Below are positions 45,492 through 63,084 of a stretch of DNA of 64,000 nt, one piece after another; positions within the stretch are counted from its first letter, which is position 1, and each line of letters starts with the position of its first letter. Both the position numbers and the translations under genes were made by a program. The notes below the pieces were generated by a model. That model was given only the letters and a program-made list of their open reading frames with translations, made no database searches and was not told where the DNA came from. The stretch covers positions 1 through 64,000 of the forward strand of contig JAPOHD010000064.1 in the NCBI GenBank assembly GCA_026671195.1, read 5' to 3'. The stretch is from Draconibacterium aestuarii. Its GTDB lineage: Bacteria > Bacteroidota > Bacteroidia > Bacteroidales > Prolixibacteraceae.

Positions 45492-45511
45492 AGTTTCAAT
45501 TTTTTAGCGGG

Positions 45512-46297: not shown

Positions 46298-46308
46298 AAT
46301 ATCCGGTT

Positions 46309-47430: not shown

Positions 47431-47528
47431 ATTTTAATTTTTTATTGTCGATTGATTAATCATTATTGATATCCCTCTCGCTCTTGTCTCACCTTACGAG
47501 ACAAACAGTCGCGCAGCGAAAACAGGGT

Positions 47529-47756
47529 TCAGCTTACCTTTACACGATAAATTGTAATACACGTATCCGGACAAACCACGCCGCAGTTTGCACAACCTAT
47601 GCACTCGTCCGGGTTTTCCATAAACGAATAATGATATCCTTTGCTGTTAACCTCCTTATGAAGCGCTAAAACATCGTGCGGACAGGCTTCTACACACAAG
47701 CTGCAACCTTTGCAACCTTCCTTATCAACAACAACTGCTCCTTTTACCTTTGCCAT
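47529..47756 (-). CDS. vorD: 2-oxoacid:ferredoxin oxidoreductase, delta (ferredoxin) subunit
   Basis: This 75-residue protein is a two-cluster ferredoxin. The motifs are CKGCSLCVEACPHDV and CIGCANCGVVCPDTC. The ATG at 47756 (AKVKGAVVVDKEGC) is preferred over the longer frame from 47804, because the -7 element at 47775-47782 lies in the extra part. It is the first gene of the vor operon and passes electrons from the catalytic subunits to the free ferredoxin pool. A gap of 98 nt separates it from vorB. Confidence 0.92.
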   Translation of the reverse strand: MAKVKGAVVVDKEGCKGCSLCVEACPHDVLALHKEVNSKGYHYSFMENPDECIGCANCGVVCPDTCITIYRVKVS

Positions 47757-47774
47757 ATTCAGTAGATTTTCTAA

Positions 47775-48105: not shown

Positions 48106-48672
48106 TTACAATTTGTACAAAATCCGAGTAAGAATGTTTCGGTGGATTCCGAGGTAGGAAGCAATGTGTTGGCGTTGTAATTTTTGCGCCAAATCGGGGT
48201 ATTCTTCAAAAAATTTACGAATGCGTTGTTCGGCATTTAACGATTGAAACGAATGAATTCGATCCATGGCCTGGATATAACTTTCTTCTGCCAGAATCCG
48301 TACGGTTCGCTCGAACTTGTGATTGGTATCGAGCAACGTTTTAAATTCATCTTTTTCGATATAAATCAACTTTGAATCTTCGTAGGCACGAATGGCTTCC
48401 GAAGAGTTTTTACCCAATACAAATCCGCGATGGTTGCTTACAATAAAATTATTGGGCGGGAAAAAGAAGCGCGAAACCCACTCCGTTCCGCTGTCGGATA
48501 AATAAGAAGCATACATAAGACCATCCATAAGCAAGCCAATCTTATTGTTCTTCTCACCATAGTCGATAAATAACTCCCCTTTCGACAATACCACAGGTTC
48601 ATTCTTCAAATTAAAATCATCAATTAAATCAATGGTATGTTCAAAGCGGGAAATTATCTTGTTCTTATCCAT
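48106..48672 (-). CDS. Crp/Fnr-family transcriptional regulator
   Basis: This 188-residue protein has a cyclic-nucleotide-binding-like domain at residues 1-120 (VLSKGELFIDYGEKNNKIGLLMDGLMYAS, split). A short HTH tail contains LAQKLQRQHIASYLGIHRNILTRILY. There are no Cys residues for an Fe-S cluster and the cAMP phosphate-binding Arg-Ser pair is not evident. It lies between the aminotransferase gene and the vor operon, both of which it could control; a site like TTGTAAC-N4-GTTACAA upstream of nrfH is of the kind this family binds. Confidence 0.85.
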   Translation of the reverse strand: MDKNKIISRFEHTIDLIDDFNLKNEPVVLSKGELFIDYGEKNNKIGLLMDGLMYASYLSDSGTEWVSRFFFPPNNFIVSNHRGFVLGKNSSEAIRAYEDSKLIYIEKDEFKTLLDTNHKFERTVRILAEESYIQAMDRIHSFQSLNAEQRIRKFFEEYPDLAQKLQRQHIASYLGIHRNILTRILYKL

Positions 48673-48691
48673 AAATAATCTATTCTACTCT

Positions 48692-48773
48692 TGACATTTC
48701 GAGGTGTAACGACGAGAAATCTTCAGTTTGGCACCTAAAATTTCTCTCTCGTTACTCTCGTTAGAAATGACAC
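48692..48773. repeat. TGACATTTCGA-type palindromic repeat
   Basis: This 82-bp element is of the same length as that in the rnf operon. It starts TTGACATTTCGA and ends with GAAATGACA. It lies between the aminotransferase and the Crp-type regulator. Confidence 0.75.
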
Positions 48774-48778
48774 TGTAT

Positions 48779-50092
48779 TTATTTTCTAAAATTTTCGTGA
48801 AACAACCTCAACCTTTCATCGAGCGCTGCAAACTGATTGTGTTGAACAAAGGAAACACAAGCCCTGATTCCTTCTTCATCGCTGCCAGTATTGTCTAAAG
48901 CGATAGCACTTACACCGTAAAATAACAAATTGGCAACCAGTTCATTTCCTGTCATTCCCGGATAACCGATGGTAAAATAAAAACCATCGGCAATGGGCAC
49001 GTCAAGATCTTTTTTGTACACAATGTCAAAACCATTCTTTAAAAACAGAGCCTTCATTTTTTTAGCTCTTTCGCCATAATCTTTTACGCCTTCAACAAAA
49101 TTATACGAACCTTCGTTAACTGCTTTTAACATGCCAGCCAACGCATACTGTGCCGAATGACTGGTTCCTGAAGAAAGTGAATACAACAAGCGTAAAGTAA
49201 TTGTGGCTCCAAACGTAGTTCCTTTAAAACGTTCCTGCAAATCGGGATAATCGCGTTGAAACAGTTTATCTGAAATGGCCATTATTCCTATTCGCTGCCC
49301 CGCATACGAGAAAATTTTGGAACTGGAAATAAACAACACGTAATTATCGGTATAATTGGCAACAGATGGTTGATAGGGAGCTTCACCCGGCTTTGAAAAA
49401 TCGGTACGGAAATCCATGCCGAAATATGCCAGATCTTCCATTACAATTACATCGTATTTGTTAGCCAGCTCCCCAATAATTTTTAATTCCTCATCGTTAA
49501 AACAAATCCACGACGGATTGTTTGGGTTGGAATAAACAATTGAGTTAATATTTCCTCCTGACAGAATACTTTCCAGTTTTGCTCTTAATTTTTCACCTCT
49601 GAAATTGAAGACATCAAAGGTGTCATATTTCAGGCCAAGCACCATCATTTGTTGCTTTTGCACTGGAAACCCGGGATCAATAAACAACAAAGTATCTTTC
49701 TTTTTATCCACATGTCCGGCAGCCATAAACGCAGCATAGGTTCCCTGCATCGATCCGGTAGTTGGAATACAACCAGCTGCTGAGAGATCAATATTCAAAA
49801 AGTTTTTTATGAACTTTGATGCCTCAGCTTTTAGAGGTTTAATACCGTCGACCATCGGATATACGGCAGCCACGCCTTTGTCGAGTGCTTCTTTCTCGGC
49901 TTCCACGCCCACTTTGGCAGGCGGCAACCCGGGAACCCCCATTTCCATGCGGATGTATTTAAAATCGGTTGCTTCTTCAACAGCATTTACCAGCGCCACA
50001 ATTTCACGAATAGATGCTTTGCCCACATCGGGAATGCGCAATTCCTGTATTTTTTTTTCTACAAGAGATTTATCAAGAGGAGAATTATTCAT
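48779..50092 (-). CDS. PLP-dependent aminotransferase, class I/II
   Basis: This 437-residue enzyme has the aminotransferase fold type I. The Schiff-base Lys is in ISSSKIFSYAGQRIGIM near residue 260, with the Asp-x-Ala-Tyr motif in VIVMEDLAYFGMDFR, the PNNPSW site near 190 and the Arg in the C-terminal domain. In Bacteroidota such enzymes are often encoded with prephenate dehydratase and act on phenylpyruvate and hydroxyphenylpyruvate. Here it ends the pheA-flavodoxin-aminotransferase run, so aromatic amino acids are the likely substrates. The 147-nt gap to the flavodoxin gene holds a palindromic repeat. Confidence 0.88.
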   Translation of the reverse strand: MNNSPLDKSLVEKKIQELRIPDVGKASIREIVALVNAVEEATDFKYIRMEMGVPGLPPAKVGVEAEKEALDKGVAAVYPMVDGIKPLKAEASKFIKNFLNIDLSAAGCIPTTGSMQGTYAAFMAAGHVDKKKDTLLFIDPGFPVQKQQMMVLGLKYDTFDVFNFRGEKLRAKLESILSGGNINSIVYSNPNNPSWICFNDEELKIIGELANKYDVIVMEDLAYFGMDFRTDFSKPGEAPYQPSVANYTDNYVLFISSSKIFSYAGQRIGIMAISDKLFQRDYPDLQERFKGTTFGATITLRLLYSLSSGTSHSAQYALAGMLKAVNEGSYNFVEGVKDYGERAKKMKALFLKNGFDIVYKKDLDVPIADGFYFTIGYPGMTGNELVANLLFYGVSAIALDNTGSDEEGIRACVSFVQHNQFAALDERLRLFHENFRK

Positions 50093-50145
50093 TTTTAATA
50101 AGTTCTGAGTTTAAAGTTCAGAGTTCAAAGGACCTCTAAACCACT

Positions 50146-50216
50146 TGTCATTTCTACGAAATATGAGGAAAAATCTTTTTCTGAAAAGCAGATTTTTCCT
50201 CATAAAAACGTCAGGT
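50146..50216. repeat. TGTCATTTC-type palindromic repeat
   Basis: It starts TGTCATTTCTACGA and contains AAAATCT / AGATTTT inverted parts, with a final CGTCAGGT that is a poor inverted match. It lies between the flavodoxin and aminotransferase genes. Confidence 0.6.
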
Positions 50217-50239
50217 AATAAAAATCGTAAAGAATATTA

Positions 50240-50764
50240 TTAAAATCCGAAATCGGGTCTGATTTGCTCAACCCATGCGGCAATTCGTTCTTCAGTCATT
50301 TCCGGTTCAAAGTCTTCATCAATAGGCAGACCAATAAATTTACCGTCAACCACAGCTTCCGACTCATCAAATTCGTAACCTTCTGCATCAACCGGCCCCA
50401 CCAAAACAGCACCGTTTTTCATTAATTCTTTTCCAAGCAAACCTATGTGATCGACAAAAGCATGCGCATAAGTTACATGGTCGCCCAACCCAAAAACAGC
50501 CACTGTTTTTTCGCTGTAATCCACCTTCGAAATTTCGGGCATAAATTTTCCCCAGTCGTTGGTTGAATATTCCGAATCCCAGGTGTCTTTTCCAACGGTT
50601 GAAAGACCAAATATAATTTTGTCGTATTTTTCTATATCTGCTACTGTAGCATCTTTTACTGCTACCAAATCTACTTTATCTTCGCCTATGGCAGCTTTTA
50701 TCGAATCGGCTACACGGTTTACAGAACCACCTACCGGGCCATAAAAAATTGCTATTTTGCTCAT
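50240..50764 (-). CDS. Flavodoxin
   Basis: This 174-residue protein has the FMN-binding flavodoxin fold. It starts KIAIFYGPVGGSVNRVADSI, where the phosphate loop differs from the usual T/SxTGxT, having GPVGGSV. FGLSTVGKDTWDSEYSTNDWG holds the Trp that stacks on FMN and VAVFGLGDHVTYAHAFVDH the second loop. Flavodoxin can replace ferredoxin as partner of POR, VOR and IOR. Its position between pheA and the aminotransferase suggests that it delivers electrons to reductive carboxylation in the arylacetate island. Confidence 0.92.
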   Translation of the reverse strand: MSKIAIFYGPVGGSVNRVADSIKAAIGEDKVDLVAVKDATVADIEKYDKIIFGLSTVGKDTWDSEYSTNDWGKFMPEISKVDYSEKTVAVFGLGDHVTYAHAFVDHIGLLGKELMKNGAVLVGPVDAEGYEFDESEAVVDGKFIGLPIDEDFEPEMTEERIAAWVEQIRPDFGF

Positions 50765-50782
50765 ATAACTGTATTTTAATTA

Positions 50783-51613
50783 TTACTGATTATGTAAGTT
50801 TCCTTTTGTATACTCACCTAAAATTGAAAGGCTCGAAGCACTTTTCAGTACCTGATGAATCGCCCTATCGTAATTTTCACCTTTTTCCCATTCAATATCA
50901 ACATGGAACGTATATTCATTTGGCTTTCCAATTTTTGGCACCGACTGAATTTTGGTGAGGTTAATTTCATTCTCAGCAAAAGTATTTAACACCCTTGCCA
51001 GAGCTCCGTAAAAGTGCCCAACTTCAAAACACACAGAAGCTTTATTTGTTCCAGTAGTTGGATTTCCGTGTTTCGAGAGAATAAGAAAACGTGTATAATT
51101 CTTTTTATTGGTTTCAATTCCGGTATCTAATACCGATAAACCATACAATTCGGCGGAACGCAGATTAGCTATCGAAGCAGCATTCCTGAGTTTTTCCTTC
51201 GCAACCAATTTTGATGAAGCTGCAGTATCCAGTTTTTCGTGTAATTGTGCATTTGGATAAAACTGCTCGATGTATTCCATACATTGCTGCAAGGCAATTG
51301 GATGCGAGTGAATATGCTCAATATCTGACGATTGCACACCTTCATTTACCAATAAATTCATTGAAATATGAATATAAATTTCACCGATTATTCGAAGATG
51401 GTAGTCGCGGATTAACTGATAATTATTCAGTAAACTTCCGGCAATTGAGTTTTCGATAGCCATTACGGCAAAATCAACTTCATCGTTATCGATCTTTTCA
51501 CAAACGGTTGTAAAAGTCTTGCATTCAACAACCTCAACCTCATCTTCAAAATATTTCCTGGCTGCATCTTCGTGAAAAGAGCCTGCGATTCCCTGTATTG
51601 CTATCCGTTTCAT
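50783..51613 (-). CDS. pheA: Prephenate dehydratase
   Basis: This 276-residue enzyme converts prephenate to phenylpyruvate for phenylalanine synthesis. The catalytic domain (about 1-180) has MAIENSIAGSLLNNYQLI and KKNYTRFLILS (the TRF motif). The ACT domain follows (about 190-270), with FYGALARVLNTFAENEINLT. The Phe-binding motif ESRP is QSVP here (KIQSVPKIGKPNEYTFHVD), which is common in Bacteroidota. There is no chorismate mutase fusion. It follows the third ACT protein gene and precedes flavodoxin by 18 nt, so aromatic synthesis shares a transcript with arylacetate activation. Confidence 0.94.
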   Translation of the reverse strand: MKRIAIQGIAGSFHEDAARKYFEDEVEVVECKTFTTVCEKIDNDEVDFAVMAIENSIAGSLLNNYQLIRDYHLRIIGEIYIHISMNLLVNEGVQSSDIEHIHSHPIALQQCMEYIEQFYPNAQLHEKLDTAASSKLVAKEKLRNAASIANLRSAELYGLSVLDTGIETNKKNYTRFLILSKHGNPTTGTNKASVCFEVGHFYGALARVLNTFAENEINLTKIQSVPKIGKPNEYTFHVDIEWEKGENYDRAIHQVLKSASSLSILGEYTKGNLHNQ

Positions 51614-51694
51614 ATAAATAATTAACTAAACCCAAAGATACAAATTATGAGTTTAGAACATGGATTTTGGGTACGATTGCCGATAAATTTAAAA

Positions 51695-52123
51695 TTACAG
51701 GCGATAAAGTTCATCTGCCCGCATCAACTCTGTTTGGTGCTTTTGTAACATTTCAACACAATATTCAACCCTTGTTGGGCGAATTACAGTTACCGCTCCC
51801 TCATCAGCCATCGAAAATGCATACATGTATTCTATAAATACTTCCTCTTGTTGAAGAATTGCCAAAAGCTTTGATAAGCTACCTGCTTTATTCGGTGTTT
51901 TCGCCAAAACCACATCGGTTGTTTGTACCGAAAAACCATTTTGTTTTAAGGTAGCGCAAGCTTTGTCAGGAGCGGAAACGATCATCCTTAATATTCCAAA
52001 ATCAGATGTATCGGCAATGGTAAAAGCCGAAATGTTAACACCGGCTTCGCCCAATATTTTGGTTACTTCGTTTAATCTTCCCGATTTATTCTCAAGAAAT
52101 ACAGATACCTGTTTTATGATCAT
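51695..52123 (-). CDS. Tandem ACT-domain protein (ACT-3)
   Basis: This 142-residue protein consists of two ACT-like halves. The first starts KQVSVFLENKSGRLNEVTKI with NISAFTIADTSDFGILRM, and the second starts LAKTPNKAGSLSKLLAI. Such small proteins are encoded with phenylacetate-CoA ligase and appear to sense aromatic amino acids. The ATG at 52123 is 4 nt after the PaaK stop and fits homologues; the earlier in-frame Met at 52147 would overlap the ligase gene. It is more distant from ACT-1 and ACT-2 than they are from each other. Confidence 0.88.
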   Translation of the reverse strand: MIIKQVSVFLENKSGRLNEVTKILGEAGVNISAFTIADTSDFGILRMIVSAPDKACATLKQNGFSVQTTDVVLAKTPNKAGSLSKLLAILQQEEVFIEYMYAFSMADEGAVTVIRPTRVEYCVEMLQKHQTELMRADELYRL

Positions 52124-52127
52124 AGCC

Positions 52128-53426
52128 TTAAATTTTACGGTTATCAATTACACGTTTTGCTTTTCCGGCAGTGCGTTCAATTGTTTTGGGTTCAACCAGT
52201 TTTACATCCACCGAAATTCCCAATAAACTTTGAATATTGTGTTTGATCTTTTTCTTCAATCCCTCCAACTGACGGATTTCATCCGAGAAAAACTGCTCCT
52301 GCACCTCTACCATCAACTTTAATACATCCAAAGTTCCTTCGCGCTCTACCATTAACAAGTAGTGCGGCTCGGTTTCACTCATTTCGAGCAGTACTGTTTC
52401 TATTTGCGATGGAAATACATTTACACCACGAATAATCAACATATCGTCAGAACGTCCTTTGCATTTTTCCATTCGAACCAAAGTACGACCGCATTCGCAT
52501 TTGTCGTAAATCAAACGGGTTAAATCGCGGGTGCGGTATCGTAAAATCGGAATACCTTCTTTGGTTACAGTTGAAAATACCAATTCTCCCACTTCTCCCG
52601 GTTCAACGGCTTCAAACGTATCGGGATTAATAATTTCAGGCACAAAATGGTCTTCGTTAATGTGCATTCCAACCTGGTGTTCGCATTCGCACGAAACACC
52701 GGGGCCAATTACTTCACTTAAACCATAAATATCAATTGCCTTCAGTTTGAGTTTGGCTTCAATTTCCTTTCGCATACTTTCGCTCCAGGGCTCGGCACCA
52801 AAAATTCCAACACGTAAATTCAAATCTGCCGGATCAATTCCCATGTCGCTCATTACTTCGGATAAAAAAAGCGCATACGAAGGCGTACAGGCAATTACAG
52901 AAGTTCCGAAATCCTGCATCAGTTGAATTTGTTTCTGTGTATTACCGCCTGAAATAGGAATTACGGTAGCTCCCAGGTTTTCAGTTCCGTAATGCATTCC
53001 CAAACCTCCGGTAAACAAACCGTAACCATAAGCTACCTGTACAATATCGTTGCGACTTACGCCGGCCATACACAAAGTACGCGTTACCACATCGGCCCAC
53101 ATATTCAGGTCGTTTCGGGTATAGCCAACCACAGTAGGTTTTCCGGTAGTACCCGAACTGGCATGCACACGTACAATTTCGCTCATCGGAACGGTAAACA
53201 TTCCAAAAGGATAATTGTCGCGTAAATCGGTTTTATTTGTAAATGGTAATTTCTTTAAATCGTCGATTGAACGCACATCGCCCGGCAACATCCCAATTTC
53301 CTGCATTTTTGCACGGTAGCTTGGAATATTGTGGTAAATACGCTGAACAGTTTGTTTTAATCTTTCGCCTTGAATGGCTGCCATTTCATCACGCGAGGCA
53401 CATTCAATTTTTTCGTTCCAAATCAT
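52128..53426 (-). CDS. paaK: Phenylacetate-CoA ligase (PaaK-2)
   Basis: This 432-residue enzyme activates arylacetates with ATP and CoA. The AMP-binding core has [20 protein letters not shown] near residue 88. [32 protein letters not shown] and REVRTRD-like [20 protein letters not shown] follow, and the C-terminal hinge has [17 protein letters not shown]. The C-terminal Lys-containing segment [12 protein letters not shown] is conserved. A second, diverged copy is encoded at 56437. Different arylacetates (phenyl, hydroxyphenyl, indole) may be the reason for two enzymes. Confidence 0.96.
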
Positions 53427-53471
53427 AAATATGTGTTGATTTTATTTCTTATTTATATTTCTCAAATAATC

Positions 53472-53605
53472 TTGTAACAGATTCCTCTCCGTCAGCCGAC
53501 GGATCGGGATGACAATAGTTAGAGACTACTTATTTCATAAAACCTATCCTACCAAGCCTGCCTGTCATTCTGAACATAATGCAATGAAGTGAAGAATCTG
53601 TTCCA
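53472..53605. repeat. Half-copies of the palindromic repeat family
   Basis: TGTAACAGATTCCTCTCCGT with TCAGCCGACGGATCGGGATG matches the inner half of the rnf-operon element (27691-27730). CTGTCATTCTGAACATAATG at 53562 with GAAGTGAAGAATCTGTTCC is the related inverted half. They fill the gap between PaaK-2 and ACT-2. Confidence 0.7.
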
Positions 53606-53610
53606 TAAAA

Positions 53611-54042
53611 CTATTTTCCGTAAACGGTTTTATCATCTAAAATATGTACATGATTTACTTCCAGTCTTCGTTTTGCTTCAAGTACATCAGGTACTTCAAG
53701 TAATAAAATTGCCATGTTTGTTTCCGAAATCAATCGCGTATAAGCGCTGTCGATGTGAATTCCGGAACGTGCAATTTTTACCAGCAATTCGTCCAGGCCT
53801 CCGGTTTCATCTTTCATTTCGAGCGCAATTACTTCGTGCATAGTTACCGAATTTCCCTTGTCTGCAAGTACTTTGTATGCTTTCTCGGGTTGATCGACAA
53901 GAAGGTTTAAAACTCCCCACCCGTGCGCCATATTGTTTAAGGTTAATGAGCGGATATTAATTAATTCCTTTTTCAACAGGCTGGTAACCGATTCGAAATG
54001 GGATATTTTGTTTTCGAGAAAAATGGAAATTTCAAATGCCAT
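53611..54042 (-). CDS. Tandem ACT-domain protein (ACT-2)
   Basis: This 143-residue protein starts AFEISIFLENKISHFESVTS and carries NIRSLTLNNMAHGWGVLNLL. Its second half contains VIALEMKDETGGLDELLVKI. It is a clear paralogue of ACT-1 (55926-56360), with the shared core LNLLVD, VIALEMKDE and VYG at the end. They probably form homo- or heterodimers that bind an aromatic amino acid or arylacetate and control the adjacent ligase or transporter. It lies upstream of PaaK-2 in the transcript. Confidence 0.9.
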   Translation of the reverse strand: MAFEISIFLENKISHFESVTSLLKKELINIRSLTLNNMAHGWGVLNLLVDQPEKAYKVLADKGNSVTMHEVIALEMKDETGGLDELLVKIARSGIHIDSAYTRLISETNMAILLLEVPDVLEAKRRLEVNHVHILDDKTVYGK

Positions 54043-54134
54043 AATTTTAGTTTTACTGATGAGAAATAAATGCCATAGGTAAATTTAAAAGTATTCTTTT
54101 AAAAAAGGCATAACAGAACTCATATTATAAATTG

Positions 54135-55721
54135 CTATTTTATTCCCTTGTAACAAGCTGCCAGATGTTCGTCGGACGTTTTTTGAGTTGCCAACGAAAC
54201 AACGATCAAAACAACAATTGAAATAGGCATTGCAATTAAAATCGGATCGACAATCATCCATGGAAATTCGCTTGCCAAAGTTGGTTTGCCAAAAATAGCC
54301 TGACAAATTCCGAGTGGTTCCGATTCTTTTACATGCATAAATCCGAGCGAAAAAACACTTGCAATCAATCCGGTAAGAATACTCCAAAGCGCTGCAGTTT
54401 TTGTTACCCTTTTCCAATACAAGGCACCAAAATAAACCGGTAAAAATGTTGCTGCACAAATGCCAAAAAAAATGGCTGTTCCGCGGGCAATAATACTTCC
54501 GGGCAATTTGTAACCAATAATTATACTGATGAGAATGGCCACGATAATTCCTATTTTCGAGATCATCATGGAATCGATCTTTTTATTCGGGAATACATTT
54601 TCGATAAAGTCGCGCCCCAGCGAGGTTCCCATGGTATGAAATTGCGAACTTAAAGTTGACATTCCGGCCGAAAGCAGGGCCAGCATAAACAGGTACACAA
54701 ACCACTCGGGCATGGCTGCACTTATGTATTCAGGAATAATTAAATCGACATTTCCTTTTGCTACCTGAATGGCCAGCTGACCGGATTCGTTGTAGAAATA
54801 AAGGTTGGTTAAAGCACCTACAGTGAACACAAATCCGGTGGCTACAAAAATAAATATACCTCCGATTAGAACCGCCCGGTTTAGTTCGCGGTTACTTTTA
54901 ACGGTCATAAAACGTACCACCAACTGGGGCTGCGCCAATACTCCAATTCCAACACCTAAAATAATATTGGTAGTTAAAGCCCACCACCAGGCCGAATTCA
55001 TTTTTGGGAAAACCGTCCAGCCTTCGTGTCCTTTAGATGTTAAACTTTCAGGTACCAGGTTCACCATGTTGGTAAGCGCCTCGTGCGCAGCAGAAACACC
55101 GCCCAGTTTTACATAGGTTACAATCAGTAAAAAGAACAGACTTAAAAACATAATGGATCCTTGCAAAGCATCGGTGTACATTACGCCTTTTAAACCTCCG
55201 GCAATTACATAAGCTGCAATAATTATCGAGAAAAAGGTGAGTGCCAGCGAAAAATCGATCTCAAAAATACTTTCGATAAAACGTGCCCCGCCGATTAAAA
55301 CAACGGCAGCATAAAGTGGCATCGAAATAAAAATTACTGCACCGCTGATTATTTGTATTTTCTTGGATTGAAAGCGATTTCCCAAAAACTCAGGAAAGGT
55401 GTGTGCATCCAGATTATGCCCCATCTTCCGGGTTACACGCCCAAAAAAGATAAAAGCTATAAAAACCCCTACTATAATATTTAAAGCAGTCAGCCAGATA
55501 AGTCCCATTCCATAAACTCCGGCAATTCCTCCAAATCCAATAATTGCTGAAGTTGAAATAAAAGTGGCACCATACGACATTGCCATAACAAAGGGGTGAA
55601 TATCGCGACCTGCCAGTAAATAATCCTTGGCACTTTTGGTTTGCTTGTACCCCCGGTATCCAAGAAATGCGATTGCCAGTAAATAAATAACAACTACCAA
55701 TCCTAAAACAAATGTATTCAT
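54135..55721 (-). CDS. Sodium:solute symporter (SSS family), probably for arylacetate
   Basis: This 528-residue inner-membrane protein has about 13 membrane helices of the SSS/ActP family. The N-terminal YGATFISTSAIIGFGGIAG is the Na+ site. AYVIAGGLKGVMYTDALQGS is the signature of helix 5, and LLSAGMSTLSSQFHTMG marks the core. Acetate and phenylacetate permeases belong to this group. The context, between two ligase-ACT modules, points to phenylacetate or a relative. It is preceded by a 59-residue accessory gene typical of this family (12 nt gap). Confidence 0.9.
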   Translation of the reverse strand: MNTFVLGLVVVIYLLAIAFLGYRGYKQTKSAKDYLLAGRDIHPFVMAMSYGATFISTSAIIGFGGIAGVYGMGLIWLTALNIIVGVFIAFIFFGRVTRKMGHNLDAHTFPEFLGNRFQSKKIQIISGAVIFISMPLYAAVVLIGGARFIESIFEIDFSLALTFFSIIIAAYVIAGGLKGVMYTDALQGSIMFLSLFFLLIVTYVKLGGVSAAHEALTNMVNLVPESLTSKGHEGWTVFPKMNSAWWWALTTNIILGVGIGVLAQPQLVVRFMTVKSNRELNRAVLIGGIFIFVATGFVFTVGALTNLYFYNESGQLAIQVAKGNVDLIIPEYISAAMPEWFVYLFMLALLSAGMSTLSSQFHTMGTSLGRDFIENVFPNKKIDSMMISKIGIIVAILISIIIGYKLPGSIIARGTAIFFGICAATFLPVYFGALYWKRVTKTAALWSILTGLIASVFSLGFMHVKESEPLGICQAIFGKPTLASEFPWMIVDPILIAMPISIVVLIVVSLATQKTSDEHLAACYKGIK

Positions 55722-55733
55722 AATCGTTATTTA

Positions 55734-55913
55734 TTAAATTTCACCTTTAGTTAGTTCATCTTTACTTTCCCATTCCAGGTCTTTCTGAATTTCTTCAATA
55801 TCAGTTTCTCTACCTTTATTCCAGTTCAGTATTCCGTAAACAATACAGGCAATTAAGCCAAGTATCGAAAAAAGGTATCCGAGATAGATCCCGGGATCGT
55901 TTATTCCAAGCAT
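55734..55913 (-). CDS. Symporter small accessory protein
   Basis: This 59-residue protein is too short for most gene callers but convincing. It starts MLGINDPGIYLGYLFSILG, has one membrane helix (about 9-28) and then an NWNKG motif and an acidic tail (EEIQKDLEWESKDELTKGE). Small proteins with this pattern are encoded immediately before SSS-family symporters and are thought to be a small subunit or assembly factor. Here the gene ends 12 nt before the symporter start and begins 12 nt after ACT-1. Confidence 0.85.
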   Translation of the reverse strand: MLGINDPGIYLGYLFSILGLIACIVYGILNWNKGRETDIEEIQKDLEWESKDELTKGEI

Positions 55914-55925
55914 ATTATATCGTTT

Positions 55926-56360
55926 TTATTGGTTTCCGTAAACTTTCTGATCTTCCAGAATTTTTATTCCTTTTGCATTTAACTTAGCGATGGATTCTTC
56001 ATAATCATCCACATTTAGTACAAGAATTGCAGTTTGGGTTTCCTGAATTGTTCTCCCCAGCGCATTATTGAAATTAACATCTGCCTGTGCAACCTGCAGC
56101 AGCAAATCGTCTAAACCACCGGCTTCATCTTTCATTTCCAGGGCTATTACTTTGCGAAGCGCCACCGAAATACCTTTCTCTGAAAGTGCCTCGTAAGCTT
56201 TATCAGGATCATCGACCAACAAATTGAGAATTCCCCAACCGTTCACCGTGTCGTTGATTGCCATAGACCGAATGTTGATTTTGGTCTCTTTTAAAACATT
56301 GGTTATTCGCTCGAAATGACCAATTTTATTTTCAAGAAATATGGATACTTCGTATGCCAT
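55926..56360 (-). CDS. Tandem ACT-domain protein (ACT-1)
   Basis: This 144-residue protein starts AYEVSIFLENKIGHFERITN with NIRSMAINDTVNGWGILNLL. The second half has VIALEMKDEAGGLDDLLLQV and ends ILEDQKVYGNQ. It is the first of the two close paralogues; the gene follows PaaK-1 by 76 nt. A regulatory role by binding aromatic amino acids is inferred from the ACT family and from the position. Confidence 0.9.
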   Translation of the reverse strand: MAYEVSIFLENKIGHFERITNVLKETKINIRSMAINDTVNGWGILNLLVDDPDKAYEALSEKGISVALRKVIALEMKDEAGGLDDLLLQVAQADVNFNNALGRTIQETQTAILVLNVDDYEESIAKLNAKGIKILEDQKVYGNQ

Positions 56361-56436
56361 TTTAGTTCTAAGTTTTAAGTTCAGTATTTAACGTTGCAGT
56401 CCTCATTCAAAAACATTACAATCTTTGTTTTTATAT

Positions 56437-57774
56437 TCAACTGCAACTTATATTTTCTTTTGTCACTCCATTTACACGGTTATCCACAACACGCACTGCC
56501 TTCCCTTCCGATTTGGGAATGTAACCCGGTTCAACCAGTTTTACAATGGGCTTTGCCAGCACCTCGTCGCGAATTTGAGCCGTTATCATTTTCGTTAAGT
56601 TATCCAGACGACGGATATCTCCTTTAAACCACTCTTTTTTCACTTCAACTTCCACCACCATTTCATCAGTGCCGTTTAATGTTACAAGCGTAATTAAGTA
56701 GTCGGAACCCACCTCCGGAATTTTCATCAAAACACCTTCAATTTGCATGGGGAACACGTTACAGCCTTTTATAATAAACATGTCGTCCGAACGGCCCGTT
56801 ATCCGGTCTATGCGGCGATGCGTTCTGCCACATTCGCATTTCCCGGGAATAATTCGGGTAATATCTCGTGTACGGTAGCGAATCAGCGGCATCGACTGGC
56901 GGTCGAGGGTTGTCATTACCAACTCTCCATATTCTCCGTCAGGAACCGGTTCCAGCGTATCAGGATTTACTATTTCAACCACATAGGCATCTTCCCAAAT
57001 GTGCAAACCGTTCTGGTATTCACATTCAAAAGCCACCCCCGGTCCATTCATTTCCGACAAGCCGAACGAATTAAATGCACGCACGCCAAACATTTCTTCA
57101 ATACGTTTGCGCTGTTCATCGGTGTGAGGTTCGGCTCCGATCACCAGGGTTTTTAACTTTGTGTCTTTCTTTGGATCGAGTCCTGCTGATTGAAAAACTT
57201 CGTACAAACGCCCCAGGTAACTTGGGATAGCATGTGCAGCAGTAGTCCCGTAGTCCTGCATCAATTTAATCTGCCGCAAACTGTTACCTGCTCCGGCCGG
57301 AATACTTAAAGCTCCCAGGGTTTCAATTCCATACTGAAAGCCCAAACCTCCGGTAAAAAGGCCATAACCGCAAATATTCTGAAAAACATCGGTATCGCGA
57401 ATTCCGGCACAAAATAGCGAGCGTGCCATTAAATTGGCCCACGAATTTAAATCGTGTCGATTGTGAAAAATCACTGTCGGATTACCGGTGGTTCCGCTGG
57501 AACTGTGCAATCGAATAATTTCCTTTTTGGGCAGCGTTAAAAAACCGTAGGGAAAATTCTCACGCAAATCCTGTTTTGTTGTGAAGGGTAAATCACGAAT
57601 CTGAGCAATATCTTTTATATCGCCTTTGTGTATATTTTTTTGTTGAAAAAGTGTTTTATAATAAGGCGAACGAGCAGCATGCTCAATTGTAGCATTTAAT
57701 CGTTCTACCTGTAATTTTTTAAGATCATTCTTTCCTAAAACCTCAAAATCCTCCTGCCAAAATTCTTTCCTCAT
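56437..57774 (-). CDS. paaK: Phenylacetate-CoA ligase (PaaK-1)
   Basis: This 445-residue enzyme has all PaaK motifs: LHSSSGTTGNPTVIFHNRHD near residue 92, VIGAEPHTDEQRKRIEEM, FGLSEMNGPGVAFECE and IRYRTRDITRIIPGKCECGR. IKGCNVFPMQIEGVLMKI marks the C-terminal hinge. SEGKAVRVVDNRVNG follows near the end. Its start is 3 nt after the stop of the outer-membrane protein gene. It differs throughout from PaaK-2 and is not a recent duplicate. Confidence 0.96.
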   Translation of the reverse strand: MRKEFWQEDFEVLGKNDLKKLQVERLNATIEHAARSPYYKTLFQQKNIHKGDIKDIAQIRDLPFTTKQDLRENFPYGFLTLPKKEIIRLHSSSGTTGNPTVIFHNRHDLNSWANLMARSLFCAGIRDTDVFQNICGYGLFTGGLGFQYGIETLGALSIPAGAGNSLRQIKLMQDYGTTAAHAIPSYLGRLYEVFQSAGLDPKKDTKLKTLVIGAEPHTDEQRKRIEEMFGVRAFNSFGLSEMNGPGVAFECEYQNGLHIWEDAYVVEIVNPDTLEPVPDGEYGELVMTTLDRQSMPLIRYRTRDITRIIPGKCECGRTHRRIDRITGRSDDMFIIKGCNVFPMQIEGVLMKIPEVGSDYLITLVTLNGTDEMVVEVEVKKEWFKGDIRRLDNLTKMITAQIRDEVLAKPIVKLVEPGYIPKSEGKAVRVVDNRVNGVTKENISCS

Positions 57775-57777
57775 CCT

Positions 57778-59067
57778 CTAAAAATTGTACGTCAACATCA
57801 ATAAAATTCGGTGGTTGGTTGCGTTTACGGTATCGTCGTATAAACCATCTGTAAAGTTAAAATTACCTGTTCCATAATCGGCAGAATCCATTTCATACTC
57901 AGCAACAAAACGTAGGTTTTTATAGTTGTAAGCAAAATAAGGTGCTATACGATACACCTGCTTCATAGTAGGCATTAATCCCAGTGTTTTTGCTGCCCCA
58001 TCAAAATCATACAACTCATCCGATATCCCAAAATTATTGGAAATACCGGCAAAAAGTCCGATTTGGTGTTTAGTTCCGTAAACAATATTAAGCAATGTTG
58101 ATGCGGTTGTATAGTTGGTATATGTCATGCCTCCCGTAGCTTCATCATACGTTTTTACTCCATAGCCACCAATCATAAGCATATTGGCTAAATTTTGACC
58201 AACCATTTCCTTTACCAGGAAAAACCATTTGTCTTTTTTGTAGCCGGCATACGACATAACCGCATAGCTGGTATTTAATTCATTTGTTTTGAATTTCCCA
58301 TTGGTTCCTTCAGTAATATCAATCGGCTGAATGGCATTAAACTGGCCGGCTAAACCCAAACTTACACCATCCGAGTTATAATAAAGCCCTGCCACCAATT
58401 CAGGAATTCCGGCATTTCGTTTTGCCAAATTTGAACTGTTTGTATTGGGTACTGCGTAAAATCCTTTCGAGGCGTATTGTTGCTCGTACAAGGCTGTCAA
58501 AGACAATGTCAATGTTTTGCTTATCCGATAATCGAAATCGATTTGAGGCGAACGGTTGAAAGGGTTATACGGACTCCCCGTATTTAAACCGCCTACTTGC
58601 GGAAAAAATGCACCGCTACCGTTCCACAACGGATGCCAGGTTTGCCCCACTAAAAGAGATGAATTCTCCCAGTCGAGTTTTACGTAGGCTTTTCGTAAGC
58701 GGAGCACTTCGGGATACGAGGTTACAATTCCGGCAAAATCGGTTTCGATATTGGCCGACGTTTTTGCACCTAAAATCTCAGGTCCTTTAATGTTCATGCC
58801 AAAACGTGTGGCCATGGCAGTAAAACCATGAATACCTTGCTGGTTAATATCATCGCCATTGGCATCCTGTCCTTTGTAAAGCGGAAACAAATAGAAATTA
58901 TCCTGGGCCGCATTTAATCCTTTATAGGAATCAAAATAATATTCGCTTCGAACAAAACCATAAAACTGGATTGTCGATTGTTTGGCTGTAACTTTGTTAT
59001 CTTCCTGTGCAAAAGCAATACCTGTCAAGACAAAGAATATCCATGATATTGTAAATATTTTTTTCAT
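57778..59067 (-). CDS. Outer-membrane porin-like beta-barrel protein
   Basis: This about 429-residue protein starts KKIFTISWIFFVLTGIAFAQ, a signal peptide cut after residue about 20. The mature chain is all alternating beta-strands ending in HRILLMLTYNF, an outer-membrane insertion signature with C-terminal Phe. The opening STIQFYGFVRSEYYFDSYKG and FGMNIKGPEILGAKTSANIE resemble porin or DcaP-like proteins. A 27-codon longer frame (to 59148) would hide the signal peptide. It is the first gene of the arylacetate island and probably admits the aromatic acid. Confidence 0.85.
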   Translation of the reverse strand: MKKIFTISWIFFVLTGIAFAQEDNKVTAKQSTIQFYGFVRSEYYFDSYKGLNAAQDNFYLFPLYKGQDANGDDINQQGIHGFTAMATRFGMNIKGPEILGAKTSANIETDFAGIVTSYPEVLRLRKAYVKLDWENSSLLVGQTWHPLWNGSGAFFPQVGGLNTGSPYNPFNRSPQIDFDYRISKTLTLSLTALYEQQYASKGFYAVPNTNSSNLAKRNAGIPELVAGLYYNSDGVSLGLAGQFNAIQPIDITEGTNGKFKTNELNTSYAVMSYAGYKKDKWFFLVKEMVGQNLANMLMIGGYGVKTYDEATGGMTYTNYTTASTLLNIVYGTKHQIGLFAGISNNFGISDELYDFDGAAKTLGLMPTMKQVYRIAPYFAYNYKNLRFVAEYEMDSADYGTGNFNFTDGLYDDTVNATNHRILLMLTYNF

Positions 59068-59191
59068 ACGATAAATTGGTTTTTTTTTGATTGAATAAAA
59101 TTGATTGCCCCGAAATGCAGAATTAACACTCCGGGCAAATAAAGACATAATCTAAAAGGTTATAATATGTTGCTGTCTGTAACACGAAGAC

Positions 59192-59221
59192 CAAAAATAG
59201 CAAAATATGAAGCCTAATCAA
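59192..59221 (-). promoter_or_regulatory. Promoter of the arylacetate island
   Basis: On the minus strand TATTTTTG (59192-59199) with TTG (59219-59221) at exactly 19 nt. It lies about 125 nt before the outer-membrane protein start, so the leader is long. Confidence 0.7.
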
Positions 59222-59222
59222 T

Positions 59223-59249
59223 TCTGAACTTACAATTTGTAAGTTCAGA
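59223..59249. promoter_or_regulatory. Perfect 27-bp palindrome beside the promoter
   Basis: TCTGAACTTACAA (59223-59235), one centre T, then TTGTAAGTTCAGA (59237-59249): 13-bp perfect arms. It lies 1 nt upstream of the -33 element of the island promoter, the position of an activator site. There is no T-run on the minus strand. The binding protein is unknown; the Crp-type regulator is a candidate. Confidence 0.75.
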
Positions 59250-59401
59250 TATCTTATTTATTTTGATTTCAAACAAGAAATAGTTCGTGAAACATTTTTG
59301 ACCAGAATACTGGCAGGAATTTAATTCAATAACCAACAATGAGGGGCAGCAGAGAATTTTATTTGAACAGGCAGAAAAGCTAAAAATGTATCGCTTTTCG
59401 C
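59250..59401. other. Gene-free spacer before the MFS gene stop
   Basis: AT-rich, with no gene or clear terminator. Together with the promoter region it makes a 334-nt gap (59068-59401). Confidence 0.4.
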
Positions 59402-60595
59402 TTAATCATTAGCAAGTGCTTTTACTTTTGCAACCATTAGCGTAATTCCAATTCCAAATACTCCAATTACCGCAAACGAATAACGTAATCCGAAAGCCTC
59501 CGAAATGAAACCAATTAGCGGCGGGCCCATTAAAAATCCAAGGAAACTTACACTGGAAACAATGGCTAATGCAATTCCGGTTGGAATACTGGGATGCCGG
59601 CCTGCACTGCTGTAAACCAATGGTACAATACTCGATACGCCCACACCAACCATCATAAATCCAAGCGTACAACTGATCAAACCCGGGAACAAAACAGCAG
59701 TAAAAAGTCCTCCTGAAATCAAGGCACCAGAAATTTGCATCAATAGTTTTCTACCCATTTTTAAAATCAGAATATCTGCTAAAAACCTTCCTGTTGCCAT
59801 CATTATCATAAACGAAGTATAGCCCACAATTACCAACGACGATGGTGCACCAACCACATCTTTAAAATAAACACCGCTCCAGTCGAACATGGCCCCTTCG
59901 CTGGCCATACTGAAAAAACCTATAATTCCGAGTTGTAAAAGTATTCTGTCGGGTTTCATAAAAAACTTACGACGTGGCTGATCTTTTCTTTTTTCAAGTT
60001 CACTGTGCACCAGAAATGGATAATTGATTCGTACAATCATCCAGACAAGCCCAATAATAATTACAAAATGCCAGAACGGATTTACTTTTAAGTTAATCAG
60101 AATCAATCCGATAAAAGCTCCAGTAAATCCGGCTAAACTCCATCCTCCATGAAACGAAGCCATAATTGGCCGCCCATACAATTGTTCAGCAGCAACACCT
60201 TGTGTATTTACCGAAATATTACACATGTTTCCGAAAACCCCAAAAAGAAATAACGCGAAGCCCAGTTGCCATCCGTGTTGCACCAATCCAATTGTGCTTA
60301 AAGCGATGGTGTAAGCCGGCAGCGAAAATTTCAAAACATTATGACTGCCAAAACGATTAACCAGTTTTCCTGAAAAAGGCATCATAAGAAATTGACCAAC
60401 CGGAAGTGCAAAAAGGATACTCCCAAACATGGCATCGTTTAAAAAAAGAGCTGTTTTAATATCGGGAATACGACTCGCCCATGATGAAAAACCCAGCCCC
60501 ATACTAAAATAGACCATTGAAACGGCCATTCGTGTACGTTTCTTTTCAGTGGTAATTTTATGCTTTTCCTTTTTTTGTAGTACAATTTCCGACAT
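59402..60595 (-). CDS. Major facilitator superfamily transporter
   Basis: This 397-residue inner-membrane protein has 12 hydrophobic helices. FSMGLGFSSWASRIPDIKTA at the start is typical of an MFS branch related to YbjJ. MPFSGKLVNRFGSHNVLKF is the cytoplasmic loop 2-3 motif, and SFHGGWSLAGFTGAFIGLIL lies in helix 5. GRFLADILILKMGRKLLMQ is the matching motif of the second half. The substrate is unknown. It lies downstream of iorB but beyond a terminator, so it is probably transcribed separately or by read-through. Confidence 0.88.
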   Translation of the reverse strand: MSEIVLQKKEKHKITTEKKRTRMAVSMVYFSMGLGFSSWASRIPDIKTALFLNDAMFGSILFALPVGQFLMMPFSGKLVNRFGSHNVLKFSLPAYTIALSTIGLVQHGWQLGFALFLFGVFGNMCNISVNTQGVAAEQLYGRPIMASFHGGWSLAGFTGAFIGLILINLKVNPFWHFVIIIGLVWMIVRINYPFLVHSELEKRKDQPRRKFFMKPDRILLQLGIIGFFSMASEGAMFDWSGVYFKDVVGAPSSLVIVGYTSFMIMMATGRFLADILILKMGRKLLMQISGALISGGLFTAVLFPGLISCTLGFMMVGVGVSSIVPLVYSSAGRHPSIPTGIALAIVSSVSFLGFLMGPPLIGFISEAFGLRYSFAVIGVFGIGITLMVAKVKALAND

Positions 60596-60720
60596 AATGT
60601 TTTTACTTGGACGCGCAAAATTATGAAAACATCGGCAAGAAAGCTTTTATCGTTGAAAATAAAGGACTTTCGTTAATTTATTGAAAAATCAGTCAAGCTC
60701 AATCCGCTCATAAAGCATAT

Positions 60721-60760
60721 AAAAAAAACCGTTTCCCAGTCTTAAACTGAAAAACGGTTT
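60721..60760 (-). terminator. Terminator after iorB
   Basis: On the minus strand GAAACCGTTT pairs with AAACGGTTT through a 17-nt loop, and an eight-T run follows. It lies 25 nt after the iorB stop. Confidence 0.8.
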
Positions 60761-60784
60761 CTATACCTCCATTTCGTTTACTTC

Positions 60785-61366
60785 CTATTTATTGGCCAAA
60801 GCAAAGTTTCGTCCGGCTCTGAAGGCTTCAAGATTCAAGTTCACAACGTCCTCTCCTTTTTTGCTAAAAACACGCTGAATACCCGCTTCAATCTTTTCAG
60901 GTGTGATTTGAATAAAAGGTGTTGCCGCCCCCAACATTACCATGTTCGAAGCACGGCGATTACCTATTTCGCTTGCAATGGCATCGGCATCGATAGCAAT
61001 ACAACGCGGCTGTTTTTTTAATTCGGCCAAAATTTCCTCTTCGTTCGGATAGTTTGGAATATTCTTAAACGGAGTGGTATTGGTTACGATGTAACCATCT
61101 TCCTTTAAGAATGGCAGGTAACGTAAAGCCTCCATTGGTTCCACCGACAAAATAATATCGGCCGTACCTACCGGAATTAAATCTGAAGCAACCGCATCAT
61201 CCGAAATACGAACGTGCGATACAACCGCCCCTCCCCGCTGGCTCATACCATGGGTTTCAGCTTGTTTTAAGTATAAATTATCGCGCAATGCTGCTTCACC
61301 TAAAATCGATGCAATGGATAAAATTCCTTGTCCGCCAACACCGGCTAATACTATATCTGTTTTCAT
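60785..61366 (-). CDS. iorB: Indolepyruvate:ferredoxin oxidoreductase, beta subunit
   Basis: This 193-residue protein starts KTDIVLAGVGGQGILSIASI, the fold shared with the gamma subunits of POR and VOR. LKQAETHGMSQRGGAVVSHV and ILSVEPMEALRYLPFL are the other IorB signatures. IorAB interconverts aryl-pyruvates and aryl-acetyl-CoA (plus CO2 and ferredoxin). The ATG at 61366 is preferred; a longer frame from 61402 adds 12 unrelated residues. It follows iorA by 89 nt. Confidence 0.94.
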   Translation of the reverse strand: MKTDIVLAGVGGQGILSIASILGEAALRDNLYLKQAETHGMSQRGGAVVSHVRISDDAVASDLIPVGTADIILSVEPMEALRYLPFLKEDGYIVTNTTPFKNIPNYPNEEEILAELKKQPRCIAIDADAIASEIGNRRASNMVMLGAATPFIQITPEKIEAGIQRVFSKKGEDVVNLNLEAFRAGRNFALANK

Positions 61367-61455
61367 TTTATTAAAATTAATAGGAAGACCAAAACCGGAC
61401 ATTTTTCTGTCTGTCGACTTTAATTGCCTTCCGCAGTCAATAATTTGGTTACGGT

Positions 61456-63084
61456 TTAGCTATATTGTTTTTTCGGATTGTCCTTTATTTTTTTTGCCTT
61501 GCGCATACGTTTTGCAGCGGCCTGAATACATTCGCGGCGGAATACAATTACAGAAACACCATCGAAGGCCAATTCTTCGTTAAAGGTTTCCACCATTTGC
61601 TCGTGGTACTTTTTAAGCGGAACAAGCACCCGAATATGAGCAGGATCCACTCCCACTCCCTGGCAAATACTTTCCACTTTTCCCAGAGCAGAAGAATCCT
61701 GTCCACCGGTCATCGATACTGATTCATTATCCGATATCACCACAACAATGTTTGAACCGTCATTTACTGCATCCAATAAACCAGTGATTCCCGAGTGTGT
61801 AAAAGTAGAGTCGCCGATTACAGCTATGGCCGGAATTAAACCGGCATCGGAAGCTCCTTTTGCCATGGTAATAGATGCCCCCATGTCAACACACGAATAA
61901 ATACTTTTGTATGGTGGTAGAGCACCCAGTGTGTAACATCCAATATCAGAAAAAACACGGCCTTTCGAAAATGTATCCAAAGCTTCATTAAGGGCTTTGT
62001 ACATATCCTGGTGTCCGCATCCCTGACACAAAGCCGGCGGGCGATTAACTATTATATCCGGAATTTCTGCTCCTTTCAAAACTTCTTTCCCCAAGGCTTT
62101 GGCAACCAAATCAGCATTTAGTTCTCCGTCACGAGGAAGTGCACCACTCAATCGTCCCGATACTTTTATATCTTTTTTGAAAGCTGCCTTTACTGCTTCT
62201 TCCACAACAGGTGCTCCTTCTTCCAATACCAAAACCTCTTCGCAATGTTTCTCCATTTTGGACAACATCTTTTCCGGAATCGGGTATTGTGTTAATTTCA
62301 TTACCGTGTAAGGACAATCGTCAATTGGATAATTTTCCTGCAGATAATTGTATGCAATTCCACAGGCAATAATTCCAAAGCTCCGGTCCGAACTTTTAGT
62401 AATTGAGTTGTATTTCGATTTTTTTGCTGCTTTCTCAAAGTCCTTTTGTTTCTCCAGCAATCCTTTATAACGACGACGGGCAATGGCGGGCAGCAATACA
62501 AACTGACTTGGATCGGATGGCAACTGTAATTCATTCGAACTTAAAACTTCGCTGCGTTCAACTCCTGCACGCGAGTGTGCCAAACGAGTTGTGATACGAA
62601 CCATTACAGGCACTCCCAGCTCTTCGGAAAGGGCAAAACCTTCGCGAACCATATCATATGCTTCCTGCTGATTACTTGGTTCTAAAACCGGAATCATGGC
62701 AAACTTGGCATAAAAACGCGAGTCCTGTTCGTTTTGTGATGAGTGCATCGACGGGTCGTCGGCAACGGTCAAAATCATTCCTCCGTTAATACCTGTTATT
62801 GCAGAATTTACAAATGCGTCGGCAGCCACGTTTAATCCCACGTGTTTCATACAAACCATGGTACGTTTGCCTGCGTACGACATTCCCAAAGCAGCCTCAT
62901 AGGCTGTTTTTTCGTTCGACGACCATTTGCTGCGAATGCCCAATTCTGCTGCCAATTCGCTTTCCTGTATAAATTCGGTTATTTCGGTTGAAGGTGTTCC
63001 TGGATACGCATAAACGCCTGAGATGCCACCATCGATAGCTCCCTGCCCAATGGCTTCAACACCTAAAAATAGATTTTTTTGCAT
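61456..63084 (-). CDS. iorA: Indolepyruvate:ferredoxin oxidoreductase, alpha subunit
   Basis: This 542-residue subunit holds the TPP site. It has GISGVYAYPGTPSTEITEFI near residue 22, MVCMKHVGLNVAADAFVNSA near 76 and CQGCGHQDMYKAL near 355. IGDSTFTHSGITGLLDAVND with VVISDNESVSMTGGQDSS is the TPP domain. Archaeal IorA has a C-terminal domain with two 4Fe-4S clusters; here the chain ends RRECIQAAAKRMRKAKKIKD without any CxxC motif, so that domain is absent. Another ferredoxin must take the electrons. The gene has an ideal promoter upstream. Confidence 0.95.
   Translation of the reverse strand: MQKNLFLGVEAIGQGAIDGGISGVYAYPGTPSTEITEFIQESELAAELGIRSKWSSNEKTAYEAALGMSYAGKRTMVCMKHVGLNVAADAFVNSAITGINGGMILTVADDPSMHSSQNEQDSRFYAKFAMIPVLEPSNQQEAYDMVREGFALSEELGVPVMVRITTRLAHSRAGVERSEVLSSNELQLPSDPSQFVLLPAIARRRYKGLLEKQKDFEKAAKKSKYNSITKSSDRSFGIIACGIAYNYLQENYPIDDCPYTVMKLTQYPIPEKMLSKMEKHCEEVLVLEEGAPVVEEAVKAAFKKDIKVSGRLSGALPRDGELNADLVAKALGKEVLKGAEIPDIIVNRPPALCQGCGHQDMYKALNEALDTFSKGRVFSDIGCYTLGALPPYKSIYSCVDMGASITMAKGASDAGLIPAIAVIGDSTFTHSGITGLLDAVNDGSNIVVVISDNESVSMTGGQDSSALGKVESICQGVGVDPAHIRVLVPLKKYHEQMVETFNEELAFDGVSVIVFRRECIQAAAKRMRKAKKIKDNPKKQYS

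Follow-up and report, generated by a model that had tools for sequence, protein, structure and literature searches.

Why should the only prephenate dehydratase gene (pheA) of a bacterium lie among genes for the activation of arylacetates? The question is raised by a gene block of Draconibacterium aestuarii, located in the window analysed here (the first 64,000 nucleotides of contig JAPOHD010000064.1). All genes of the block lie on the minus strand and follow each other in the order of transcription as iorA, iorB, the gene of a major facilitator superfamily (MFS) transporter, that of an outer-membrane protein (OMP), paaK1, ACT1, the gene of a 59-residue accessory protein, that of a sodium:solute symporter (SSS), ACT2, paaK2, ACT3, pheA, a flavodoxin gene, an aminotransferase (AT) gene, a Crp/Fnr-like gene and korDABC (Table 1). 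The part from iorA to the AT gene (48,779–63,084) had been described as a one-strand gene set by a first-pass annotation made from the sequence alone, and every gene it named is present, most with support from family searches, including the "small subunit" of the symporter, whose open reading frame scores over the cut-off of its family. The Crp/Fnr-like gene and korDABC extend the block beyond this list. Genome-wide there is a single pheA match, two ligases with PF14535 and three ACT_8 genes, and all of them lie inside the block, so the grouping is more than chance. The gaps between genes from OMP to AT are 3 to 184 bases long, and those flanking the MFS gene are 189 and 334 bases (start codons were chosen by us, the start of OMP being probably 59,067 and that of ACT3 52,123). 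The pheA gene of this lineage is linked to a unit for the activation of arylacetates.

Table 1. Features of the block in the order of transcription, with positions in the window and the matches on which the assignments are based.
Feature	Position	Strand	Evidence
iorA, indolepyruvate:ferredoxin oxidoreductase alpha, without C-terminal ferredoxin domain	61456..63084	-	TIGR03336
iorB, oxidoreductase beta	60785..61402	-	NF005324 302.4 bits (cut-off 222)
Terminator-like hairpin after iorB	60724..60762	-	18-pair stem, then T run
MFS transporter, local insertion	59402..60595	-	PF07690
OMP, outer-membrane beta-barrel, DcaP-like channel	57778..59067	-	predicted model; best PDB match 6eus DcaP
PaaK1, arylacetate-CoA ligase, 4r1l type	56437..57774	-	nearest solved structure 4r1l, E 1.1e-184; SSGTTGNPT and GKAVRVVD motifs
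ACT1, ACT_8 protein, proposed PaaK1 partner	55926..56360	-	PF19571 67.7 bits; tree
Symporter small accessory protein, 59 aa	55734..55913	-	NF045580 61.5 bits (cut-off 35)
SSS sodium:solute symporter, proposed arylacetate uptake	54135..55721	-	PF00474 206.8 bits
ACT2, ACT_8 protein upstream of PaaK2	53611..54042	-	PF19571 55.4 bits; 53.5% identical to ACT1
PaaK2, phenylacetate-CoA ligase, nearest 2y27 type	52128..53426	-	2y27 E 7.4e-147
ACT3, ACT_8 protein directly 3′ of PaaK2, 4-base gap	51695..52123	-	PF19571 101.4 bits; 2f06 E 1.5e-41
pheA, prephenate dehydratase, only copy found	50783..51613	-	PF00800 191.7 bits (cut-off 25.2); TRF motif
Flavodoxin, long-chain	50240..50764	-	TIGR01752 161.4 bits (cut-off 146.75)
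AT, proposed aromatic aminotransferase	48779..50092	-	PF00155; 3g0t E 6.1e-162; adjoins PaaK in other families
Crp/Fnr-like gene, candidate block regulator	48106..48672	-	PF00027 22.1 bits (below cut-off 27.5)
korDABC, four-subunit 2-oxoacid:ferredoxin oxidoreductase, VorB type	44940..47759	-	NF005507 VorB 541.2 bits (cut-off 399)

The gene order was compared within the family using pheA loci from 59 further genomes of 22 genera. The set covers 28 of the 35 other genomes of the same genus with a pheA match and 31 genomes of other genera; it was picked for spread rather than at random, and each count leaves out loci whose contig ends too early on the side concerned. All 56 loci counted have the AT gene 3′ of pheA, and 49 of the 56 have flavodoxin there. 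The korA gene is found on the same side in 36 of 49 loci (24/25 outside the genus and 12/24 inside), which makes korDABC a steadier neighbour of pheA than iorAB. On the other side, PaaK is present within 6 kb upstream of pheA in 28 of 54 loci, representing 17 of the 22 genera. A draw of 100 genomes of the family, with one pheA taken per genome (weak or partial secondary matches were dropped in five of them), yielded pheA in 93 genomes, ACT_8 in 77, both in 74 and ACT_8 alone in 3. ACT_8 lies within 12 kb of pheA in 59 of the 74 genomes with both, always upstream and on the same strand. The gene-order comparison proposed in the first-pass annotation thus shows conserved linkage of PaaK-ACT to pheA in the family, and arylacetate-type ligases, 2-oxoacid:ferredoxin oxidoreductases, transporters and PheA do cluster, as it had claimed. 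In four loci with the PaaK module distant from pheA (L155–L158), the module retains the order iorAB-OMP-(PaaK1 cassette)-ACT2-PaaK2-ACT3. The block thus consists of two units: pheA-(flavodoxin)-AT-(Crp)-korDABC, and a PaaK-ACT unit which in many cases, though not in all, lies joined to its upstream side.

The partners of pheA are different outside the family. The same PheA enzyme is encoded within ~3 kb of the gene for DAHP synthase-chorismate mutase (DAHPS-CM) in 11 of 12 other Bacteroidales families, often together with tyrA (prephenate dehydrogenase), whereas neither gene was found near pheA in the window and 34 loci of its family (positive control included). In the present genome, tyrA and the DAHPS-CM gene adjoin each other on another contig (C20). 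Of 109 Bacteroidales genomes drawn, 24 have ACT_8 and 48 have prephenate dehydratase (PDT); PDT occurs in 23 of the 24 genomes with ACT_8 vs 25 of the 85 without it (p 2.3e-9, Fisher test; the genomes listed for this test have different family codes save two), and only 1 of 61 genomes without PDT has ACT_8. Both genes share a contig in only 2 of 23 genomes, and these two belong to the family of the window. Parts of the block recur elsewhere: PaaK-ACT is accompanied by AT and iorAB in five loci of other families, by AT and korDABC in L103 and L104 (families f44 and f62), and PaaK1-ACT by the accessory protein and SSS in L096 and L097. The simplest reading would be that pheA joined an older AT-PaaK-Kor group.

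Both ligases are of the PaaK type, judging by their nearest solved relatives and by the P-loop and catalytic lysine motifs, PaaK1 having SSGTTGNPT and GKAVRVVD. TIGR02155 is the best library match for both, although neither reaches its cut-off of 646.3 (PaaK2 620.4 bits, PaaK1 448.9 bits). Their substrates are probably arylacetates; the structure nearest to PaaK1, 4r1l, is presumably that of BT_0428. The two proteins are only 47% identical, each matches a different solved PaaK best, and both types occur in other families; a recent duplication was rejected on these grounds. What had been called "duplicated activation" is therefore a pair of old, distinct subfamilies.

Each ligase is accompanied by ACT_8 proteins (PF19571), all three of which exceed the gathering cut-off of 23.5. 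In the order sample, 31 of 34 ACT_8 genes lie within 2 kb of a PaaK gene (the remaining three belong to two genomes, two genes in G126 and one in G141, with no ligase seen on those contigs), and ACT_8 is present in 24 of the 25 genomes whose PaaK scores at least 60 bits, the exception being G054. In the collected loci, 72 of 76 PaaK reading frames have an ACT gene on the same strand within 700 bases, 64 of them directly downstream with a median gap of 12 bases; these loci were partly fetched for holding ACT, and the order-level count is the fairer one (L079 and L080, repeat genomes, are excluded from the PaaK-ACT counts, and L155 also from those of downstream gaps and motifs). In a tree of 49 ACT proteins, the grouping follows the type of the adjoining PaaK, with 4 changes vs a mean of 18.7 after shuffling and none of 200 shuffles as low. 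The tree was built by a quick method, 10 of its 46 branches being starred and 23 open, and the clustering is raised by close relatives. Within it, ACT1 and ACT2 make up a clade of their own (10 rows, all from the family of the window), and ACT3 belongs to a wider clade. The pairing of ACT_8 with PaaK thus exists both in linkage and in the tree. It is consistent with ACT_8 proteins being feedback partners of PaaK that would bind a ligand and contact the ligase directly, and it leads us to expect that acyl-CoA ligases are regulated in this way in other Bacteroidales as well.

We consider it rather probable that the block brings together enzymes meeting at phenylpyruvate, that it serves mainly the assimilation of arylacetates, and that the ACT proteins are feedback partners of PaaK. 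Phenylpyruvate would be formed de novo from prephenate by PheA. The other entry would be provided by external arylacetates, passing the outer membrane through the DcaP-like channel and the inner membrane through SSS with its accessory protein. PaaK1 and PaaK2 would convert them with ATP to CoA esters, and IorAB and/or KorDABC would carry out reductive carboxylation of the arylacetyl-CoA with electrons from flavodoxin or ferredoxin, after which the aminotransferase would form the amino acid. The linkage of ligase, oxidoreductase and aminotransferase fits reductive carboxylation at the level of genes. Each PaaK might have its own ACT protein, which would sense the amino acid product and stop activation, and the ACT-like end of PheA might exert the same shut-off on synthesis. 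Such an arrangement suggests that salvage and synthesis of phenylalanine are controlled together. Going further is tentative: pheA may have left the chorismate operon and become attached to arylacetate activation, making one valve of both entries, with ACT_8 proteins as dedicated allosteric subunits of PaaK co-evolving with the ligase type and the ACT-like end of PheA guarding the other entry. We hold this to be possible rather than probable.

Several observations weigh against assimilation with ACT feedback. As many as 19 of 93 family genomes with pheA have no ACT_8 at all, and in the genus itself only 6 of 14 genomes have the two linked, ACT_8 being distant in the other 8 (94 kb to 1.25 Mb away in six, on other contigs in two). 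Joint loss from reduced genomes could account for part of the co-occurrence of ACT_8 with PDT. PaaK does not generally depend on ACT_8: PF14535 occurs in 8 of 14 control genomes, and just two of these eight (Bacteroides ihuae and Methanosarcina acetivorans) also have ACT_8. Near pheA, 4 of 9 loci with PaaK1 have no SSS nearby. Finally, the aminotransferase and the oxidoreductases are reversible, and in B. thetaiotaomicron deletion of BT0430, from the iorA cluster, lowers the output of 4-hydroxyphenylacetate, the indolepyruvate:ferredoxin oxidoreductase (IOR) being oxidative there (PMC10746243).

The last point leads to the opposite direction of the pathway, in which amino acids are transaminated, the arylpyruvates are converted to arylacetyl-CoA by Ior or Kor and the arylacetate is excreted, with PaaK running in reverse or recapturing the acid and with SSS and OMP serving export. 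Production of phenylacetate by B. fragilis (PMC11304471) agrees with it, and four PF13607 matches in the genome leave room for ADP-forming ligases outside the block. Among the block genes themselves, however, family searches find no phosphotransacylase, kinase or ADP-forming ligase. The PaaK enzymes are AMP-forming, and their ACT partners and link to pheA fit biosynthesis, and ACT_8 is nearly absent from genomes without PDT. Quantifiable indoleacetate was obtained from 0 of 66 Bacteroidota strains (PMC13290082). The AMP-forming ligase beside the Bacteroides IOR is an arylacetate-CoA ligase by its authors' account, and a biosynthetic role was proposed because such ligases favour acyl-CoA formation (PMC13285125). 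Both accounts may hold, since the steps of the oxidoreductase and the aminotransferase can run either way and it is the ligase that sets the net direction. Our own reading is assimilation first with overflow possible, and we regard a mainly oxidative run as unlikely.

It is also conceivable that the core of the block serves branched-chain acids. KorDABC would then be a branched-chain 2-oxoacid enzyme (VOR) supplying the synthesis of branched fatty acids, and the aromatic genes would be no more than neighbours. The score of korA with the VorB subfamily agrees with this, as does the rescue of a B. fragilis kor2 mutant by phospholipids or Tween 80 (oleic acid), the second function of Kor2 being given as unknown (PMC11304471); it is our inference that korDABC corresponds to the kor2 operon and that the rescue is explained by primers for branched fatty acids. 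Such a role would leave unexplained that PheA and AT are specifically linked to korDABC in the family and that AT, PaaK and Kor are again found linked in families f44 and f62; besides, VOR-type enzymes can act on arylpyruvates too (PMC13285125). We find it distinctly improbable. That common genes have come to lie together by chance, with no functional coupling, is barely credible: the two units are indeed apart in 8 of 14 genomes of the genus and an MFS gene is inserted here, but the same side and strand are kept in 59 of 74 genomes and the PaaK-pheA link in 17 of 22 genera.

Assimilation of arylacetates under ACT control has precedents for several of its parts. In Bacteroides, IorAB (BT0430-0429) likewise adjoins an AMP-forming arylacetate-CoA ligase with a proposed biosynthetic role (PMC13285125); the available part of that description mentions no pheA, flavodoxin, korDABC or porin/SSS set, whereas here ACT and pheA belong to the block. 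For the archaeal arylacetate route of methanogens (IOR and VOR of Methanothermobacter), a reverse run for amino acid synthesis was proposed, as here (PMC13285125). The tyrosine oxidation system HpdDEFG-HpdJ-HpdK of Clostridium scatologenes shares a VOR-like four-subunit enzyme, which acts there on arylpyruvates (PMC13285125), but its phosphotransferase and kinase make ATP, in contrast to the AMP-forming, ATP-consuming ligases of the present block. The core idea of an IOR-ligase pathway is already in print, and what seems new is the pheA junction and the ACT-PaaK pairing: our searches of the open-access literature turned up no description of a family-wide placement of pheA with PaaK-ACT/AT/Kor, of ACT_8-PaaK pairing by ligase type or of an SSS-PaaK1 link. 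Phenylacetate from gut bacteria is present in human plasma (PMC12176623), and 4-hydroxyphenylacetate is made by Bacteroides (PMC10746243). The IOR of Bacteroides has been assigned an oxidative role (PMC10746243) or proposed to be biosynthetic (PMC13285125). A family with pheA-linked ligases and an ACT partner for each ligase offers a clean genetic system for studying direction and control. The recurring AT-PaaK-Kor linkage (L103, L104) may bear on the second function of Kor2 in B. fragilis; if KorDABC is the counterpart of Kor2, this function may be, as we infer, the supply of branched-chain acyl-CoA primers for membrane fatty acids.

The iorAB genes stand in a different relation to the block. 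IorA of the block scores 529.7 bits with TIGR03336, below the cut-off of 650.9, the match reaching only position 548 of 595; there is no Fer4 match, and none of the 21 such IorA reading frames of the loci, of which two come from one genome, has the CxxCxxCxxxC motif. A second IorA of the genome, on contig C59 (L142:6352-8154), keeps the C-terminal ferredoxin domain and is also under the cut-off (481.3). It is possible that the nearby flavodoxin is the partner of the block IorA lacking this domain. A steady association of iorAB with pheA was rejected: iorA is found up to 13 kb upstream of pheA and in the same orientation in 5 of 48 family loci, which are 0 of 25 outside the genus and 5 of 23 inside (L149, of another genus, has a divergent iorAB beside the PaaK module and was left out of this count). 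Conversely, iorAB lies beside the PaaK module in all four Draconibacterium-genus loci with the module away from pheA, in L081 and, at the level of the order, in 6 of 30 ACT_8 loci. Within the genus, iorAB travels with the PaaK module rather than with pheA. It probably forms a transcript of its own, ending at the terminator-like hairpin with a T run 3′ of iorB, which has the longest stem of 21 terminator-like sites (18.3 expected in shuffles). The sizes of the gaps together with this hairpin point to three likely transcripts: iorAB, MFS, and OMP onward. Thus the placement of iorAB and MFS upstream in the first-pass annotation stands as to presence and strand, but iorAB is tied to PaaK and probably transcribed separately, and the MFS gene is local, being found only in the window and L038 among the loci compared. 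Proteins with POR_N number five in the genome: IorA and KorA of the block, IorA on C59, a KorAB-type pair on contig C1 (L143) and a 1187-residue protein of the window. The open frame of the latter starts at 31,945 on the plus strand, scores 264 bits with POR_N and has the size of a one-piece pyruvate:ferredoxin oxidoreductase.

PheA scores 208.6 bits with NF008865, slightly below the cut-off of 219, and its C-terminus gives a weak ACT match (23.6 bits, below the cut-off of 27). The Crp/Fnr-like gene follows AT in ten genera of the family and was not seen there in about as many others.

The predicted model of OMP is a beta-barrel of modest confidence (pTM 0.66, mean pLDDT 64.8). Its match to DcaP (E 1.4e-14, TM 0.70 by target) is followed by general porins; no Pfam or NCBIfam family is matched over cut-off, and the likeness to DcaP is one of fold only. 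OMP is 78–80% identical to the nearest named records, L078–L080 of Draconibacterium, a genus assigned by NCBI to Prolixibacteraceae, Marinilabiliales. A route for small organic acids is plausible from the model, the substrate being suggested by the neighbouring genes. PaaK1 is nearby in 5 of 5 pheA-anchored loci holding SSS, and also in L096 and L097, so, given the loci with PaaK1 alone, SSS depends on PaaK1 and not the reverse. L157 and L158 have OMP-ACT2-PaaK2-ACT3 but none of PaaK1, ACT1, the accessory protein and SSS. No arylacetate transporter appears in the permease, porin, symporter and uptake passages of a review (PMC9493321). In L039 and L040, ~6.8–10.2 kb towards pheA, there are two SSS genes in tandem, with 88% and 78% identity to that of the window. 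In another locus (L145, genome G173), ~11.2–12.0 kb towards pheA, the matches to PaaK2 and ACT3 are fragmented and pheA is full-length, which looks like an ongoing loss of the salvage unit.

As to regulatory signals, no Rfam family matches the window at gathering thresholds, and a sigma-70 scan gives no excess (42 sites vs 49.7 expected). The Bacteroidota-type promoter motif has two strict matches, both intragenic, and three loose intergenic ones, one of them before OMP (59,221–59,192), which is weak evidence. A perfect palindrome of 27 bp before OMP (59,223–59,249) was rejected as a conserved operator, being present upstream of 0 of 35 other OMP reading frames (repeats of one genome included). 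Between iorA and the divergent nrfH, a near-perfect palindrome with the core TTGTAACnnnTGTTACAA occupies positions 63283–63312, 62–91 bases before nrfH; among 20 other stretches upstream of iorA, similar ones occur in L038 and L048 and a shorter one in L062. We take it to resemble a Crp/Fnr-type site. The gaps ACT2-paaK2 (53427–53610) and AT-Crp (48673–48778) contain stretches with TGTCAT and short inverted repeats resembling dispersed repeats.

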